Shown in pieces: positions 19,839-49,596 of a stretch of 64,000 nt of DNA (positions within the stretch are counted from its first letter, which is position 1; each line of letters begins with the position of its first letter). Position numbers and translations under genes: made by a program. The notes below the pieces were generated by a model. The model was given only the letters and a program-made list of their open reading frames with translations. It was not told the DNA's origin and did no database searches. This DNA comes from Myxococcota bacterium (lineage in GTDB: Bacteria > Myxococcota_A > UBA9160 > UBA6930), in contig JANQOX010000021.1 of assembly GCA_028285625.1 (NCBI GenBank), positions 124,001 through 188,000 on the forward strand. The letters are read 5' to 3'.

Positions 19839-20968
19839 CCGGTTGCCTCTGCGGCGAGTGGCTGGTGTGAAGCCTCGACGGTCGGAAGCGGCTGAGGTCG
19901 TTCGCCCTCGACGGTCGCGAGCGGCTGAGGTCGTTCGGCCTCGACGGAGGGCAGCCGGTCGCAGGCCCGCAGCACCGGCTCCCACGCGCGGGCGTGACGG
20001 ACGCTCGCCCGGCGGTGACGCTGCCACACGCCCGCTTCGTCCGTGGGACTGAGCATGCGGGCGTGGTAGCGCGCCATGGCTTCGGGCGCTTGGTCGAGCC
20101 GCCCGGCGCTAGCCCTGTAGATGGCGTCGAGATGGCCCAGCGCAGGGCCCACGTCGCGATCGAGTTCGACGATCGCCGCCTGGGCGGGCAGGTAGTGCTG
20201 ATCGAAGGCCCGCGCGAGTCGCGCGTTGTCGGTGCCGCAGGCATCGGCCGGCTGTCGCTCGAGCCGGGCGGACACGGTCTCTAGGGAGAGGGCGATGCGC
20301 TCGAGCTGGCGCAGGGCCAGACCGAGGGGAGGCTCGTCGCGCAGGTCGCCCAGCGCGAGTTCCAGCTCGCGGCCGGCCTCGGGATCGAGACGCTCGGCCT
20401 CGAGCACCCTGGCGGCTACGGCAAGCGAAAGGTGTGCGGTGCCATCGGGGGCATCGGCCGTCGGCGAGGCGCCGATCGCGAGGTAGCGCTCCATGGGCTC
20501 CGAAGTCCAGACCGCATTCCAGACGTGCCGGCCCATTTCAGTGCGCTTCGCATGGAGGACGGCTTCGAGCCGCGCGCGACGCTCGGTCTCGAGCGCGTCG
20601 ACGCAGGCGCGAGCCGTGTCGAGTACCGAGAGCTCGTAGCGCAGTCTCTGGGTGGGGCCCTGGACACGCCCGAGTTGGCTGTTGCGCTCCCCTGCGAGTC
20701 GACCCAGTGAGCAGCCCTGGAGAGCGAGAAAGTCGAATGCGCCGATCCGATGATCAGCGGTCCCGAGAGCGCGGTCGCGCCGACTCGGAAGGTGGGTCGC
20801 TTCGCTCGAGGGCTGCGCCGAGAAAGTCTCGCCGAGCGCGACCTCGAGGGCCGCGTGGTAGGCCTCGATCCGCTGGGCAGGGCCGGCGGCGCGACAGGCC
20901 GTGGTCCAGACCAGCAGCAGGGCCAGGCCGCCGCGGGCGGCACATCGAAGGGCGTAGCGGCTTCGCAT
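19835..20968 (-). CDS. DUF3080-like lipoprotein with repetitive C-terminus
   Basis: 377 residues. N-terminal signal with a cysteine after GLALLLVWTTAC, so it may be lipidated, although the lipobox is not ideal. The segment IGAFDFLALQGCSLGRLAGE and then RNSQLGRVQGPTQRLRYEL fits the DUF3080 family (mostly gammaproteobacterial, unknown function). The rest is helical with many Leu/Arg/Glu heptads. The C-terminal 30 residues are a short repeat (SVEAERPQPLA, TVEGERPQPLP, TVEASHQPLA) encoded by a 33-bp tandem duplication at 19873-19938. The gene leads a likely operon with the kinase-like and methyltransferase genes. Function unknown. Confidence 0.75.
   Translation of the reverse strand: MRSRYALRCAARGGLALLLVWTTACRAAGPAQRIEAYHAALEVALGETFSAQPSSEATHLPSRRDRALGTADHRIGAFDFLALQGCSLGRLAGERNSQLGRVQGPTQRLRYELSVLDTARACVDALETERRARLEAVLHAKRTEMGRHVWNAVWTSEPMERYLAIGASPTADAPDGTAHLSLAVAARVLEAERLDPEAGRELELALGDLRDEPPLGLALRQLERIALSLETVSARLERQPADACGTDNARLARAFDQHYLPAQAAIVELDRDVGPALGHLDAIYRASAGRLDQAPEAMARYHARMLSPTDEAGVWQRHRRASVRHARAWEPVLRACDRLPSVEAERPQPLATVEGERPQPLPTVEASHQPLAAEATG
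19873..19938 (-). repeat. 33-bp tandem repeat, two full copies plus a partial, at a coding 3' end
   Basis: Copies at 19873-19905 and 19906-19938 are nearly identical, and a decayed third begins at 19939. They stay in frame in the DUF3080-like gene and give the repeated EGERPQPL-type tail just before the stop. Confidence 0.9.
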
Positions 20969-21079
20969 GGTGGGTCTCGGGCCGATCGGGGAACGGCGGA
21001 GGCGCGGCCCTCGAGGGAGGGGAGGGGTGGGGACGCGCCCCCGCCGAACCGGGGCTCCTACGCGAAGGCGTGGGAGCGC

Positions 21080-21244
21080 CTACCGACTTCGGGCCGGAAC
21101 CGGGGCCGGGCGCATTTCCCGGCTGCTTCGGATCCGGATCTTCTTCGGGCCGGACTCGTAACGCGCACGCGCGTAGACGTAGGCGCCGGCCACCGCGAGG
21201 AACGTGACGCCGCAACCGAAGGCGGCGATGCCTGCATCAGTCAT
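21080..21244 (-). CDS. Small single-helix membrane protein (54 aa)
   Basis: Encodes 54 residues: MTDAGIAAFGCGVTFLAVAG begins the protein with a single hydrophobic helix (about residues 5-24), followed by a basic, Arg-rich cytoplasmic tail (ARARYESGPKKIRIRSS...). Its ATG overlaps the stop of the upstream small gene within ATGACTGA (21237-21244), and the sequence CAGGAGAGAACC just before it supplies a good Shine-Dalgarno site. The pairing of two tiny membrane proteins under a MerR-type regulator suggests an accessory or stress role, perhaps a regulatory subunit, but no family is recognised. Confidence 0.65.
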   Translation of the reverse strand: MTDAGIAAFGCGVTFLAVAGAYVYARARYESGPKKIRIRSSREMRPAPVPARSR

Positions 21245-21452
21245 GGTTCTCTCCTGCGAAGAGCAGCGCGCCGGCGGCGAGGATCGAGGGCACCCAGAGC
21301 CCGACGAACAGGCCCTCCTCCCTGGCTCCGGTGAACCACAGGGCGATCGAGCCCAGGAAGGACAGCGTGGCTGCGGAAAAGATCAGGGCCTTGCCGCGGG
21401 TCTGTGCGGCCTGGATCTCCTGGCTTCGGTCTCGTGAGGTCGTGGCTTCCAT
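21237..21452 (-). CDS. Small two-helix membrane protein (71 aa)
   Basis: 71 residues with two hydrophobic helices, ALIFSAATLSFLGSIALWF and GLFVGLWVPSILAAGALLFA, separated by a short TGAREE loop; the N-terminal 20 residues are hydrophilic (MEATTSRDRSQEIQAAQTRG). AAGGAG spaced 6 bp before the ATG at 21452 fixes the start over the longer frame from 21509. A TTGACT/TAATAT promoter lies upstream (21482-21509, minus strand). It overlaps the following 54-residue gene by 8 bp, and it is divergent from the MerR gene, which is the natural candidate regulator. No family recognised. Confidence 0.7.
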   Translation of the reverse strand: MEATTSRDRSQEIQAAQTRGKALIFSAATLSFLGSIALWFTGAREEGLFVGLWVPSILAAGALLFAGENHD

Positions 21453-21481
21453 GGCCAACTCCTTGTTTCGAGGACGTCCAG

Positions 21482-21509
21482 ATATTATCGGGACAAGATC
21501 GGGAGTCAA
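21482..21509 (-). promoter_or_regulatory. Sigma-70-like promoter for the small membrane protein pair
   Basis: Reading the minus strand, TTGACT (21509-21504) and TAATAT (21487-21482) are separated by 16 bp. The start site would fall near 21475, about 20 nt before the ATG at 21452. The region is strikingly AT-rich for this genome. Confidence 0.6.
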
Positions 21510-21527
21510 TTAGATATACAGAAAAAA

Positions 21528-21555
21528 TTGAGAAATTTTGTGAACAGGTTAGATT
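21528..21555 (+). promoter_or_regulatory. Sigma-70-like promoter for the MerR gene
   Basis: TTGAGA (21528-21533), a 16-bp spacer and TAGATT (21550-21555) precede the MerR ATG by about 40 bp. It diverges from the other promoter, with the two -35 boxes 18 bp apart, so a protein bound between them (AT-rich 21510-21527) could affect both. Confidence 0.5.
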
Positions 21556-21596
21556 CCCTCTGTCCCACCCCGCAGGCAGCACAGGAGCCAGATTCA

Positions 21597-22577
21597 ATGT
21601 CGAGCCAGGACGCAGAACGAGCCCCGCAGGGCTTCTCGATCGGGACGGTCGCCGGGCTCACCGGGCTCGATCCGCACACCATCCGTGCCTGGGAACGGCG
21701 GCATGCGGCGGTCGTCCCCGGCCGCAGCCCGGGCGGGACCCGTCGATATGACGACAGCCACGTGCTGCGGCTGCAACTCCTGAAGGGGTTGGTCGACCAG
21801 GGCGAGGCGATCGGCCGAGTCGCCCACCTCGACGAACCGGCCCTGCGCGAGCGCCTGGGGAGGATTGCGGGCATGGCCGGCGGGGAGGCGCGCCAGGCGG
21901 TTCGCGGCCGGCCGGCGGTGGCGTGGCTGGCGCCGAACGTCGAGGCCCAGCTCGATGCCGACCCGGCCGCGGACGCGGATCTCGACCGGGTCCTGTCCGC
22001 CGACGACCTCGACACACTCCTCGCCGGGTTGCCCGGCATCGAAGTCGATTCCGTGGTGGTCGAGCTCGAGCGCCTGGGCCCTGACCCCGAGCAGGCCCTC
22101 GCCGCCCTTCGCGTCGCGGCCGACGGGGCCGAGGTGCTGGTCGTCTACAACTTCGCCGCGGCCGCCGCGCTGGCCCGCCTCGTGCGCGTCGGCGCGCGCC
22201 TTCTGCGCGCCCCTCTGCGTGGCGCCGAGATTCGCCAGGCCGTCGTGGCGACCCATCCGCGAGAGCCGCGGGCCAAGGCCGTGCCGGCCGCGCTGGGCTC
22301 GAGTCCGGCCGGCGAGGCCCACGAGCCCCGTTTCGACGACACCCAGCTTGCCCGGCTGATGGAGATGCAGACCGCCATTGCCTGCGAATGCCCGAGCCAT
22401 CTGGCCGCCCTGGTTTCGAGCGTCGGGGCCTTCGAGCGCTACTCGCGCACCTGCGAGAGCCGCGGCGACGAAGACGCCCTGCTCCACCGCCGGCTCGCCC
22501 TCGAGTCCGGGCGCATCCGCAGCCAGCTCGAGACCCTGCTCGAGCAGGTCTGCCGGCACGACGGCCTGGCGATCTAG
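21597..22577 (+). CDS. MerR-family transcriptional regulator with a long sensor domain
   Basis: 326 residues. An N-terminal winged helix-turn-helix (FSIGTVAGLTGLDPHTIRAWERRHAAV, then PGGTRRYDDSHVLRLQLL, residues 13-65) is clear MerR. The middle domain (about 100-225) looks Rossmann-like (VDSVVVELERLGPDPEQALA, AEVLVVYNF) and occupies the place of the cobalamin domain in LitR/CarH regulators, but I see no DxHxxG cobalt-binding motif, so B12/light sensing is unlikely. The C-terminal domain (CECPSHLAALVSSVGAFERY, then SRTCESRGDEDALLHRRL) has two cysteines and recurs in MerR proteins of this type. Start at 21597 is preferred over 21528 because of AGGAG upstream and the promoter position. It is divergent from two small membrane-protein genes. 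Confidence 0.85.
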   Translation: MSSQDAERAPQGFSIGTVAGLTGLDPHTIRAWERRHAAVVPGRSPGGTRRYDDSHVLRLQLLKGLVDQGEAIGRVAHLDEPALRERLGRIAGMAGGEARQAVRGRPAVAWLAPNVEAQLDADPAADADLDRVLSADDLDTLLAGLPGIEVDSVVVELERLGPDPEQALAALRVAADGAEVLVVYNFAAAAALARLVRVGARLLRAPLRGAEIRQAVVATHPREPRAKAVPAALGSSPAGEAHEPRFDDTQLARLMEMQTAIACECPSHLAALVSSVGAFERYSRTCESRGDEDALLHRRLALESGRIRSQLETLLEQVCRHDGLAI

Positions 22578-22653
22578 GCGGCGGCGTCGGCGCCGACGCG
22601 TCACCCTTCCCGGGGCCGCCCTTCTCGCCGCCCTCGGAGCGCCTGCCTCGACC

Positions 22654-23235
22654 ATGCTTGCAAGAGATGTCCTCGCCTACTGGCTCGGCCCCGCGTCCGA
22701 CCGCGATGCGCCCTCGGAGTCGGTTTCCAAGAAGTGGTTCTCGGGCGGGGCCGACGTCGACGACGTCATCCGCGAACGGTTCGGCCAGGCCGTGGAGCGC
22801 GCGCTGGCTGGCGAGCTCGACGAATGGGCCGACACACCTCGGGGTCGCGTGGCGCTGGTGATCCTCCTCGATCAATTCACGCGCAACCTGTATCGCGGCG
22901 ATGCCCGCTCCTACGCCGGTGATGCGAAGGCGCTCGACCTCGCGCGCCAGGGCCTGGTGGATGGCCACGAAAGCGAGCTGGCGCCCACCGAGCGCTACTT
23001 CCTGTACATGCCATTCATGCATGCCGAGGATCCGGTGGCGCAGGCGCGAAGCGTGGCGCTGTTCTCGGCGCTGGCGCGAGAGGGCCCCTCGCGCATCGAC
23101 GGTTCGCGCTGGGCCGAGCGCCACTGCGCCGTGGTCGAGCGGTTCGGGCGATTCCCCTCGCGCAACGCCGTGCTCGGGCGCGAGAGCACGCCCGAAGAGC
23201 GCGCGTTCCTCGAAGAGAACCCGACCGGGTTCTGA
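22654..23235 (+). CDS. DUF924-family protein
   Basis: 193 residues, the normal size for DUF924. Typical segments are VLAYWLGPASDRD, KKWFSGGADVDDVIRERFG, VILLDQFTRNLYRG (LLDQFPRNxYRG in most members), RYFLYMPFMHAEDPVAQ and VVERFGRFPSRNAVLGREST ending FLEENPTGF. The fold is all-helical and TPR-like; no biochemical function is established. Soluble and cytoplasmic. Sits alone between the MerR gene and the large AAA regulator, same direction, with gaps of 76 and 36 bp, so cotranscription with either is possible. Confidence 0.9.
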   Translation: MLARDVLAYWLGPASDRDAPSESVSKKWFSGGADVDDVIRERFGQAVERALAGELDEWADTPRGRVALVILLDQFTRNLYRGDARSYAGDAKALDLARQGLVDGHESELAPTERYFLYMPFMHAEDPVAQARSVALFSALAREGPSRIDGSRWAERHCAVVERFGRFPSRNAVLGRESTPEERAFLEENPTGF

Positions 23236-23271
23236 TCCGGGGGCCACGCGCCCCGCGGCTACAATGGCCCC

Positions 23272-26200
23272 ATGCGGTTCCGGTTCGCCGACTTCGAGGT
23301 GGACGAAGAGGCGTTCGCGCTTCGTCACGGGGGAGAGCCCATCGAGATCGCGCCGCTGCCCCTGCGACTGCTGATCCACCTGCTGCGCTGCCACCCCACG
23401 GCGCCGTCGAAGAACGAGCTCCTCGAGACCCTCTGGCCCGACACCGTCGTGGGCGAGGCGAGTCTCTCGAAGGCGGTGCGTCAGGCGAGGGCCGCGCTCG
23501 GCGAGGGTGCATCGGACGAGGGCGTGCTGCGCACGGTGCGCGGTCGGGGGTTTCGGATCGGCGTCCCGGTGGTGGCGGTCGACCCGGATCTCGGCGATGC
23601 GGAGGCGGCGCCGCGCGTCACGCTGTTCGGTCGCGACGCCGAGCTCGCCGCATGCGATCGGGCGCGTGCGGCCTCCGAGCAGGGAAGCCTTCAGGCGCTG
23701 CTCCTCGCCGGAGAGCCCGGCATCGGGAAGACGGGCCTGGCCGAGGAGGTCGCTGCACGCGCTGCGGCTGAGGGTGCGCTGGCGTTGTTCGGGCGTTGCT
23801 CCGAACTCGCGGGCGCGCCGGCCTACTGGCCCTGGTCGCAGATCCTCGGCGACTACGCGGCGCGCCGCGACGAGGCGGTGCTGCGCCGCGAGCTGGGGCG
23901 GGCAGCCACGCTGGTGGCCGACGTGGTGCCCGAGATCGGCGAGCGCCTGGGTCTGTCGGAGGCTCCCGAGCGAACGCCATCGCCGCAGGATCGATTCCGC
24001 TTCTTCGAGGGCGTGGCGCGCTTCGTCCGACGTGCGAGCGAGGAGCGGCTCTTGCTCTTCGTGTTCGACGACCTGCACTGGGCAGACGAGCCGTCGCTGC
24101 TGTTGCTGACCTTCCTGGTGCGCGAGGCGGCGGCGGCGAGGCTCCTGCTCGTGGTGACCTACCGCGACGTCGAGCTCGTGCCCGGTTCGCCCTGCGAACA
24201 GGCGCTGGCCGCGCTCGCGCGCACACAGCGCGTGGCAACCACGCTCGAGCTGGGCGGGCTCGACCGCGCCGCCATCGGCCAGCTGGTGGGGAGCGACCTG
24301 GGGCGCGAGGCCAGCGATGCCTTCGTGGACGAGGTGCTCGAGCGGACTGGTGGCAACCCGTTCTTCGCGCACGAGCTGGCGCGCGGAGAAACCACGGGGG
24401 CTGCGGTGCCCGCCGGCGTGCAGCAGGTGATCTCGCGCCGAATGGGCGACCTGCCCACAGCCTGCGGCGCGCTGTTGCGATGTGCAGCCGTGGTCGGGCG
24501 CGAGGCCGACGTTCCGCTGCTCGCCCTGGCGGTCGACACCACGCCGGCCGAGGCACTCGCCGCGCTCGAACCCGCCGAGCGGGCACGGCTCGTGCGCGTG
24601 GAGCCGGGCGCCGGCCGTGTGCGCTTCGCGCACGACCTGATCCGCGAGACCCTGCTCTCGGGGCTGGCGGCCCACGAGCGCACGGCGTGGCACGCGCGGG
24701 TGGCCCAGGCGCTCGAACGGCAGCACGGCGCCCACCCCGACCCGGTGCTGTCGGAGCTGGCGACGCACCACGCCGCGTCGCTACCGGTCGGCGATCCCGC
24801 GCGTGCGGTGCACTGGGCCATGCAGGCCGCCGAGCAGGACATGCGGCGACTCGCTTTCGAGCCTGCGGCCGAGCACGCAGCGCTTGCCCTCGACGGGGTC
24901 GACCGGGGCGACGCGAGCCTGGCTCCGGCGCGCGCGGGCGCGCTCGATCTGCAGGCCGAGGCGCTCTTCCGCGCGGGTCGCCGCGAGGCCGCGCTCTCGG
25001 CGCGCTGGCGCCAGGTGGAGGTGGCCCGCGCGACGGACGATGCCGAGCAGCTGGCTCGGGCCGCCATCGGCATCGCCACGGCCCACGTGCTCACCGCAGG
25101 GAAACAGGGCGACGTGGCCCGCCTGCTGCGCGACGCACTGCGTACCCTCGGTCGTGGTCGACCGGGTCTGCGCGCCCAGGCGCTCTGCTGGCTGGCGAGA
25201 CAGCTGACATGGTCGGACGAGGCCGAGGATCCGGTGGCGCTCACCCAGCAGGCGGTCGACCTCGCGCAGGAGGCCGAAGACCCCGACACGCTCGCCGAGG
25301 TGCTCGGCGCACGGGGCAGCATCCTCGAGATGGGCGGCACCGACGCGGATCGCACGCAGACCTACGAGGCTTTGCTGCGGCTCGGCCGAGAGCGCGGCGC
25401 GCCCCACTTCGAGGCCGACGCGCTTTCGCTTCGTCTGCAGCACCGCATGGAGCTCGGCGACCCGGTGGGCATCGACCGCGACCTCGAAACGTGTGCGGAT
25501 CTCGCGGAGGCCTCGGCGCATCCCTTCCACCGCGCTCACCTGGCGCGAAGCCGCGCCATGCGTGCGCTCTGGCGCGGGGATCTCGACGAGGCCGAGCGCC
25601 GCGTGGGTGAGGCGGCCGCGCTGGGCGCCGAGGTCGACGCGGACCATGCGGGACTCGTCGCATCGGCCCAGCTCGGCGCGCTGCGGCGTTTGCAGGCGCG
25701 CAGCGAAGAGATCGAGGCGGGTGCGCGGGCGGCGGCCGAGGCCCATCCGGCGATGCTCTCGTTCCGTTGCGGCCTTGCCGCCATCGCCCTCGACGCCGGT
25801 CGCGAGGACGAGGCGCGCGAGACCCTGCTGCGTCTGGCCCGGCGCGGCTTCGCCGACCTGCGGCCACGCGACCCGAACCTCGCGTTGCAGTTGGCACTGC
25901 TGGCCGAGGTGGCAGTGGCGCTGGGCGAGGCCGAGGCGGCCGAGGCCCTGGCTCCCTGGCTCGATGCCTATGCCGGGCGCGTGCTCAGCGTTCCGAACGT
26001 GCTCACGGTGGGCGCCGCCGATCGCCACCGGGGTGCGATCGCGGGCCTGATCGGCGACCCGGACGCCGGGGAGGCCCACCTCACCCAGGCCATCGAGATC
26101 GAGCGTCGCATGGAGGCAGGCCCCTGGCTCGCCCACGCCCTGGTCGATCGCGCCCGCATCCGGCGGGCCCGGGGCCGCGACGACGCGCAGGCCGATCTCG

Positions 26201-26289
26201 CCGAAGCGAAGGCGCTGGCGGACCAGGGGCGCTGGCCGGGACTGGCCCGGCGGGTCGAACGCGTCGCGTCCGAGCGGACGCCGGCCTAG
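23272..26289 (+). CDS. Winged-helix / AAA ATPase / TPR transcriptional regulator
   Basis: 1005 residues. Residues 1-100 form an OmpR/CadC-type winged helix (VDEEAFALRHGGEPIEIAPL, LETLWPDTVVGEASLSKAVR, RTVRGRGFRIGVPV). A STAND-type AAA module follows: VTLFGRDAELAACDRAR, Walker A LLLAGEPGIGKTGLAEEV (about 143-160) and Walker B LLLFVFDDLHWADEPSLLLL (about 260-279), then the sensor region GGNPFFAHELARGET. From about residue 500 the sequence is TPR/helical repeat up to the end. Such proteins read a ligand or partner through the repeat domain and use ATP-dependent assembly to control transcription. No transmembrane segment. The target genes are unknown; nothing nearby is an obvious regulon. Confidence 0.9.
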   Translation: MRFRFADFEVDEEAFALRHGGEPIEIAPLPLRLLIHLLRCHPTAPSKNELLETLWPDTVVGEASLSKAVRQARAALGEGASDEGVLRTVRGRGFRIGVPVVAVDPDLGDAEAAPRVTLFGRDAELAACDRARAASEQGSLQALLLAGEPGIGKTGLAEEVAARAAAEGALALFGRCSELAGAPAYWPWSQILGDYAARRDEAVLRRELGRAATLVADVVPEIGERLGLSEAPERTPSPQDRFRFFEGVARFVRRASEERLLLFVFDDLHWADEPSLLLLTFLVREAAAARLLLVVTYRDVELVPGSPCEQALAALARTQRVATTLELGGLDRAAIGQLVGSDLGREASDAFVDEVLERTGGNPFFAHELARGETTGAAVPAGVQQVISRRMGDLPTACGALLRCAAVVGREADVPLLALAVDTTPAEALAALEPAERARLVRVEPGAGRVRFAHDLIRETLLSGLAAHERTAWHARVAQALERQHGAHPDPVLSELATHHAASLPVGDPARAVHWAMQAAEQDMRRLAFEPAAEHAALALDGVDRGDASLAPARAGALDLQAEALFRAGRREAALSARWRQVEVARATDDAEQLARAAIGIATAHVLTAGKQGDVARLLRDALRTLGRGRPGLRAQALCWLARQLTWSDEAEDPVALTQQAVDLAQEAEDPDTLAEVLGARGSILEMGGTDADRTQTYEALLRLGRERGAPHFEADALSLRLQHRMELGDPVGIDRDLETCADLAEASAHPFHRAHLARSRAMRALWRGDLDEAERRVGEAAALGAEVDADHAGLVASAQLGALRRLQARSEEIEAGARAAAEAHPAMLSFRCGLAAIALDAGREDEARETLLRLARRGFADLRPRDPNLALQLALLAEVAVALGEAEAAEALAPWLDAYAGRVLSVPNVLTVGAADRHRGAIAGLIGDPDAGEAHLTQAIEIERRMEAGPWLAHALVDRARIRRARGRDDAQADLAEAKALADQGRWPGLARRVERVASERTPA

Positions 26290-49552: not shown

Positions 49553-49596
49553 CGCGGGTCCCTCTTCGGGCGGCTTGCGGTTCGGAGCAGTTGCTG

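Follow-up and report, generated by a model that had tools for sequence, protein, structure and literature searches.

Which signal is answered by a MerR-type regulator that shares a divergent control region with two very small membrane proteins, and do the three genes form a module of their own? This question is raised by the locus around positions 21453-21596 of the window, by which we mean the whole 64-kb stretch of DNA analysed, part of a draft genome of 5.67 Mb. The control region (21453-21596, assigned to no strand) extends over the 144 bp between the MerR gene and the first small gene, p71, contains 53% A+T and includes the most AT-rich 60 bp of the window, which start at 21481 and reach 68%, against 52% for the best stretch outside the region, at 49581. 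Using a consensus scan of positions 20500-23300, we found exactly two sigma70-like sites (mean in shuffled sequences, 0.1): the predicted p71/p54 promoter, TTGACT-N16-TAATAT, on the minus strand at 21482-21509 and the predicted merR promoter, TTGAGA-N16-TAGATT, on the plus strand at 21528-21555, with an 18-bp spacer between their -35 boxes (21510-21527). An earlier sequence-only reading had proposed this AT-rich region, its two promoters with 16-bp spacers and the 18 bp between the -35 boxes, all of which we confirmed by composition, by the scan and directly from the sequence; its description of the promoters as face-to-face was wrong, as they are divergent, back to back. No direct or inverted short repeats were detected by a repeat search of 21440-21620.

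On the minus strand, p71 (21237-21452) encodes 71 residues with two predicted membrane segments and p54 (21080-21244) encodes 54 residues with one; the two genes overlap by 8 bp, and ORFs and hydropathy agree here with what had been read from the sequence. Neither product has a match in Pfam or NCBIfam and the pair is absent from the literature titles searched, so that the word "undescribed" rests on that limited search and on these two databases. A 5-row p71 profile retrieved 24 solid copies in 19 of the 90 genomes of the class (20 counting one marginal match), and a 24-row profile gave a match in 36 of the 377 genomes of the phylum, one of them marginal. Thirteen columns are invariant across the 24 rows. 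By script, 15 of the 24 p71 copies are followed by a p54 that overlaps them slightly, by 8 bp in 11 of these 15; two more pairs, at L031 and L088, escaped the script pattern and were found by eye. Two weak p71 matches in plasmids (Halobaculum, E 4e-3; Rubrobacter, E 2e-3) were set aside, and no light gene was recognised in the annotation near them.

The regulator itself (P0003; 21597-22577, plus strand) is a 326-aa ORF matched by Pfam MerR_1 at 1.8e-15, and its HTH (21633-21827, plus strand) is the only part that Pfam and NCBIfam recognise. Searching 97 genomes, we obtained 15 full-length matches including that of the window (E <= 8.1e-56), below which there is a clear gap to HTH-only matches at E 2.3e-22 and weaker; the nearest ortholog is in a genome of the same genus. 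The AF2 model (mean pLDDT 84.5) comprises the HTH, a five-stranded alpha/beta domain at residues 107-219 and helices at 248-321, the placement of these domains being unreliable because pTM is only 0.44. The predicted receiver-like domain lies at 21915-22256 (plus strand), and the predicted fold of residues ~103-230 matches receiver domains with Z up to 14.1 and an rmsd of 2.4 over 115 residues. This fold is shared with response-regulator receivers, but the phosphoreceiver residues differ: in the 15-row alignment no row is acidic at both 112 and 113, position 156 is Glu in nine rows and Asp in one, and Tyr184 and Arg204 are invariant where Thr/Ser and Lys would be expected. With the acidic pair and the phospho-Asp, Thr/Ser and Lys positions all unkept, an active phosphoreceiver was ruled out.

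The C-terminal part (22338-22559, plus strand, from the AF2 model), folded alone, gives a confident hairpin (pLDDT 93.4) for which Foldseek returned no match at E <= 0.001; the best VIA score was Z 8.4, and no fold was assigned because such a value is common among helical hairpins. It had been noted from the sequence alone that this end of the protein carries a cysteine pair. C263 and C265 are indeed present, but the 15-ortholog alignment shows them to be only part of a larger conserved Cys/His set, C263, C265, H268, C286, H297 and C319 (22383-22553, plus strand), in which all 15 orthologs share C263, C265, C286 and H297, and C319 and H268 are each kept in 14. The triplet C263-E264-C265 and the HTH core are also invariant in this alignment. 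Named genomes scanned with a profile of the C-terminal part yielded 22 loci, several of which overlap the 15 orthologs; by title, most belong to Myxococcota or deltaproteobacterial drafts; Plesiocystis pacifica SIR-1 is also among them, and the rest include one draft labelled Planctomycetota, one Verrucomicrobiales and two uncultured proteobacterium. C263, C265, C286 and H297 are invariant in 25 aligned C-terminal domains (15 orthologs and 10 new), an alignment from which L106 was omitted although it too carries the CECP motif.

The sequence-only reading had left the regulator unplaced among MerR proteins; it instead fits the LitR/CarH light repressors. In a search of solved structures its HTH is best matched by CarH (5c8d and 3whp, E 8.6e-6), with 2jml, which we take to be the CarA DNA-binding domain, at E 8.6e-4, and the top whole-chain Foldseek match of the model is full-length CarH (E 7.1e-7, with low TM-scores of 0.25-0.29). 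Within its own genome it is nearest to two paralogues, both LitR/CarH proteins of the B12 type and 49-50% identical to it across the HTH. The match to the NCBIfam CarH model is confined to the HTH, at 1e-7 and far under the cut-off, and the MlrA and HspR models score slightly better; a heavy-metal MerR was considered and rejected, as the metal-type NCBIfam models match the HTH alone, again far under cut-off.

The window MerR shares this HTH type and the Foldseek top match with CarH and the class I LitR proteins of Thermus, Bacillus and Myxococcus; unlike them, it has no B12-binding domain, no Wx9EH and no ExHxxG. The AdoB12-binding domain that defines class I was not found by Pfam, in line with the earlier remark that no B12 motif is visible, and Wx9EH is absent from all 15 ortholog rows. 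A regular expression for ExHxxG finds nothing in P0003 and matches two of the 15 rows (L031 and L032), at the end of strand 3. In CarH the B12 motif comes after the first strand, and the two matches were rejected as B12 motifs on account of their position. The class II proteins PmlR2/PplR1 of Pseudomonas, which have a short LOV anti-repressor, appear in the excerpted literature as B12-independent repressors, as we read the window MerR to be; they retain the B12-binding_2 helical domain, whereas P0003 has no PF02607 match at E up to 1. The sequence evidence fits a LitR/CarH-type repressor that lacks the B12 part.

Class III LitR, reportedly described in Burkholderia multivorans by Sumi et al. 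in 2018 in J. Bacteriol., is likewise a MerR-type repressor without a B12 domain, a likeness drawn from descriptions of the class. Using tblastn against plasmids, we found whole-protein relatives of the window MerR in Methylomagnum, Burkholderia anthina, B. arboris and Caballeronia (two strains, with the match split in two pieces), and the B. anthina relative aligns over the full length. C263, C265, H268, C286 and H297 are common to the B. anthina, Caballeronia and Methylomagnum relatives, at 30-35% identity. The B. anthina gene has as neighbours DUF1365, cyclopropane synthase (cfa), chalcone isomerase, DUF2256, GTP cyclohydrolase I (folE), sigma-70, SDR, FAD oxidoreductase and photolyase genes, and the Caballeronia relative lies near folE and sigma-70. 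B. multivorans is said to possess a light-inducible litR cluster with folE2, cfaB, litS, phrB2 and cryB, to which the B. anthina neighbourhood presumably corresponds. The B. anthina plasmid (L112), which bears this LitR-like light-response cluster, is typed as conjugative. Since the context and motif of the Burkholderia relatives and the descriptions of class III agree, the window MerR resembles a class III LitR, a resemblance that falls short of proof; it differs in that the window merR diverges from p71/p54 and in its identity of 30-32% to the Burkholderia/Caballeronia proteins. Genes divergent from the Methylomagnum MerR show, by eye, no likeness to p71/p54.

In the available parts of the literature, class III LitR is light-responsive and needs a chromophore other than B12 (PMC9758184, PMC6739363), none being named in those parts of either source, and its C terminus resembles no functional domain, yet the protein as such shows absorption shifts in light (PMC9758184). 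The Cys/His set, which Burkholderia and Myxococcota have both retained, is a direct target for mutation.

Returning to the orthologs, we found that divergent p71/p54 adjoin the MerR gene in three of the 14 other genomes (L031, L033 and L034); in a fourth (L032) the pair lies ~5 kb from the MerR ortholog, between a photolyase-related gene (PF04244) and ftsH (PF01434/PF00004). The fetched neighbourhoods of the remaining 10 orthologs, some on short contigs, contain no credible p71/p54 match, and four of these 10 genomes (G011, G022, G028 and G062) have p71 elsewhere. Partial matches to the p54 tail near orthologs (best E 2e-4, L040) were judged to be chance. The small gene pair is thus conserved beside MerR homologues, and the proposal of a MerR-regulated membrane module stands as far as this recurrence goes; it does not stand as an exclusive association, because 10 of the 14 orthologs are without a match and six p71 copies adjoin a B12-type LitR. 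The module idea is partly supported, and a putative LitR-type light switch that does without B12, together with an undescribed membrane pair, is the more fitting description of the locus.

To consider the surroundings of p71 more widely, we collected 40 loci, 24 in the class (window included) and 16 outside it, leaving out the marginal matches of G072 (E 6.5e-4) and G180 (8.4e-4). These were compared with 20 controls from the same contigs as p71 copies (13 genomes), mostly ~45-55 kb away and at the nearest ~17 kb, the p71 regions averaging 8.4 kb and thus being shorter than the 10.2-kb controls. Genes of the relatives were called by GC-by-codon-position, and many neighbours were named by eye, a subset being checked with Pfam. 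At least one gene of a light panel (LitR-type MerR, photolyase, photolyase-related or rhodopsin) is present within 5 kb at 21 of the 40 loci and in none of the 20 controls (Fisher 2.4e-5), a panel picked after the neighbourhoods had been seen and with several queries taken from those same loci. The count is 20 of 40 (3.5e-5) if the "phr" of L171, which has no Pfam match, is dropped. LitR-type MerR alone accounts for 14 of 40 against 0 of 20. Without the five seed loci (window and L031-L034) the panel is found at 16 of 35 (1.5e-4) and LitR alone at 9 of 35 (0.019). At the other 19 of the 40 loci no core light gene lies that close, and apart from the MerR itself the window has no panel gene within 5 kb.

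Rhodopsin genes confirmed by Pfam lie within 5 kb of p71 at L083 (3781-4536), L165 (3183-3968), L168 (921-1706) and L170 (4675-5463), all four in Myxococcota genomes; the L165 locus also has, between p71 and the rhodopsin, P0006, a MerR of class III-like type with the motif CECPNHL. Rhodopsins occur in only six of the 90 class genomes, in two of the six on the contig of p71, one being a partial match with an inner stop. A PF04244 gene is present in 10 of 20 genomes with a p71 match (marginal G072 included) against 5 of 70 without, kinship ignored. Among the MerR orthologs, that of L037 adjoins a photolyase and a TudS-DUF1722 gene (Pfam), a gene type common in light-responsive operons according to the part of PMC11417400 available. 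The recurrent siting of p71/p54 near genes for rhodopsins, photolyase-related proteins and LitR makes their function testable, and with this family the bacterial light response would gain a membrane component that annotation has so far missed.

Upstream of the 23 other p71 copies, the most enriched hexamer is TAGACA/TGTCTA, found in 12 of 23 against 1.25 expected from dinucleotide shuffles. In a set of 28 upstream regions (these 23 and five of MerR orthologs) the half-sites recur as 11-bp direct repeats (7), 15-bp inverted repeats (4, strict) and 26-bp inverted repeats (4), whereas in 300 shuffles of the 28 regions no spacing occurred more than once in any shuffle. By reading, the downstream half-site of the homologous upstreams often could be the -35 box, with a TA-rich -10 some 16-18 bp further on. 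The 11-bp direct repeats of the p71 promoters match the published CarH operator consensus, tandem 11-bp repeats nnnnTnnACAn that in Thermus include the -35 box (PMC9304148, in the excerpt available). As in CarH and class I LitR, TnnACA half-sites in an 11-bp register fall on the -35 box in the homologous promoters, where they are clear; in the window the candidate sites are weaker and degenerate. For class II PmlR2/PplR1, the excerpted part of PMC9758184 gives TGTACA as half-site, with one site on the -35 box.

A matrix made from ten sites of other loci, none from the window, predicts three operators in the control region. The first (21473-21497, minus strand) covers the p71 -10 and its 13.3 bits are the top score of both strands of the 64 kb; the second (21502-21526, minus strand; a weak 5.5 bits) covers the p71 -35 and contains TGTATA-N5-TTGACT, an 11-bp direct repeat; the third (21513-21537, plus strand; also weak, 6.4 bits) covers the merR -35. 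The ten best matrix positions of the 64 kb all lie in the control region, the best elsewhere scoring -4.7. When the 144 bp were shuffled, 4 of 2000 sequences reached 13.3 bits and, with the half-site columns alone, 68 of 2000 did as well; because shuffles sometimes equal it, the score must partly reflect AT content and the sites are taken as degenerate. The predicted operators are nevertheless likely to be present in the window. An idealised operator searched genome-wide has none of its matches in the control region, and no regulon was called because it gave 12 matches against 18 for the backward control.

Architecture, conservation, promoters and operator-like sites were observed, as was the placement in the family from HTH and genome context; beyond these, we regard as probable an autoregulated divergent light-response switch, in which the B12-free LitR-type MerR controls both itself and p71-p54. 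By analogy with the family, in the dark MerR would bind TnnACA-type sites over the -35 and -10 boxes, keeping merR and p71-p54 low. The signal, either UV-A/blue light or photo-oxidative stress arising from it, may act on the C-terminal Cys/His hairpin, or alternatively on a chromophore or partner bound at the hairpin or at the receiver-like domain. The repressor would then leave the DNA, allowing p71-p54 to be expressed as members of a photoprotection regulon, which in other genomes would extend to photolyases, photolyase-related and antioxidant proteins and rhodopsins; the two proteins might shield or maintain the membrane during illumination.

The alternative that survives best, which we still consider unlikely, is that the MerR is a redox or metal sensor whose Cys3His set binds a metal or Fe-S or forms a disulfide, directly reporting oxidants, including those made by light. 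The invariance of C263, C265, C286 and H297 in the C-terminal domain sets and plasmid relatives would suit such a sensor, as would a receiver-like domain without phosphoreceiver residues and the SOD, Dps-like ferritins and AhpC-TSA_2 fusions among p71 neighbours; the LitR-type, photolyase, photolyase-related and rhodopsin genes found near p71 point to light instead, and no metal-transport genes were noticed by eye in the neighbourhood lists.

The genome of the window also contains two B12-type LitR/CarH genes with ExHEIG motifs, of which the L116 protein, the only one of the two tested, has a Pfam B12-binding_2 match, while the L117 gene lies near a Pfam-confirmed photolyase and, by reading, a cyclopropane synthase-like gene. 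Epimerase-like and sigma-factor-like genes were also seen by eye at L117 (4720-12830), and this is perhaps the organism's own light cluster. The genome has one PF04244 gene, on the contig of the window, and no rhodopsin match. With two B12-type LitR genes, one near a photolyase, a light regulon probably exists in the source organism, and cross-regulation among the LitR paralogues is possible. These two genes, together with the six other p71 copies beside a B12-type LitR, mean that B12-type proteins could own the window operators, whose half-site type fits the CarH consensus as excerpted from PMC9304148. That one of them controls p71-p54 and merR, the window MerR being a secondary or degenerate paralogue, seems to us distinctly improbable, as the window MerR is an intact protein that 15 genomes have kept, many of its residues without change. 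Divergent autoregulated pairs, moreover, usually answer to the neighbouring regulator.

Least probable of all is a reading in which there is nothing special about the promoters or the AT-rich stretch, the MerR responds to some unrelated signal, and the light genes elsewhere are close through hitch-hiking in a shared stress island. The 10 of 14 orthologs without p71/p54 nearby and the 19 of 40 p71 loci without a core light gene would allow it; the contrast of 21 of 40 with 0 of 20 controls, the operator spacing common to homologous promoters and the presence in Burkholderia of a light-type cluster with a regulator of this kind all speak against it.

The light-switch reading can be widened, tentatively and with the odds against it, to a B12-free photoreceptor-repressor made of a pseudo-receiver and a Cys3His hairpin, spread in Myxococcota and other phyla, that together with B12 relatives would control p71/p54 as a core photoprotective pair linked, in a physical or a functional sense, to rhodopsins, photolyase-related proteins or quality control by FtsH in cells exposed to sunlight. 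ftsH was seen near p71/p54 or a MerR ortholog at L032 (14228-16063), L036 (11575-13446) and L115 (4782-6698), and those of L032, L036 and the Methylomagnum plasmid give a weak hint of membrane protein quality control.

A class III-like MerR is present in four of the six rhodopsin-bearing class genomes (G016, G062, G066 and G069) and in 11 of the 84 without rhodopsin, a post hoc comparison that ignores kinship. A fusion of AhpC-TSA_2 with a short-chain dehydrogenase (Pfam; L084, 6214-7596) has relatives near p71, so that it is found at 8 of 40 loci (L072, L073, L074, L075, L079 and L085, with a weak match at L077), and may be another member of the light regulon. In the window, downstream of merR and on the same strand, a 1005-aa ORF (23272-26289) looks by eye like a winged-helix regulator with an ATPase part.
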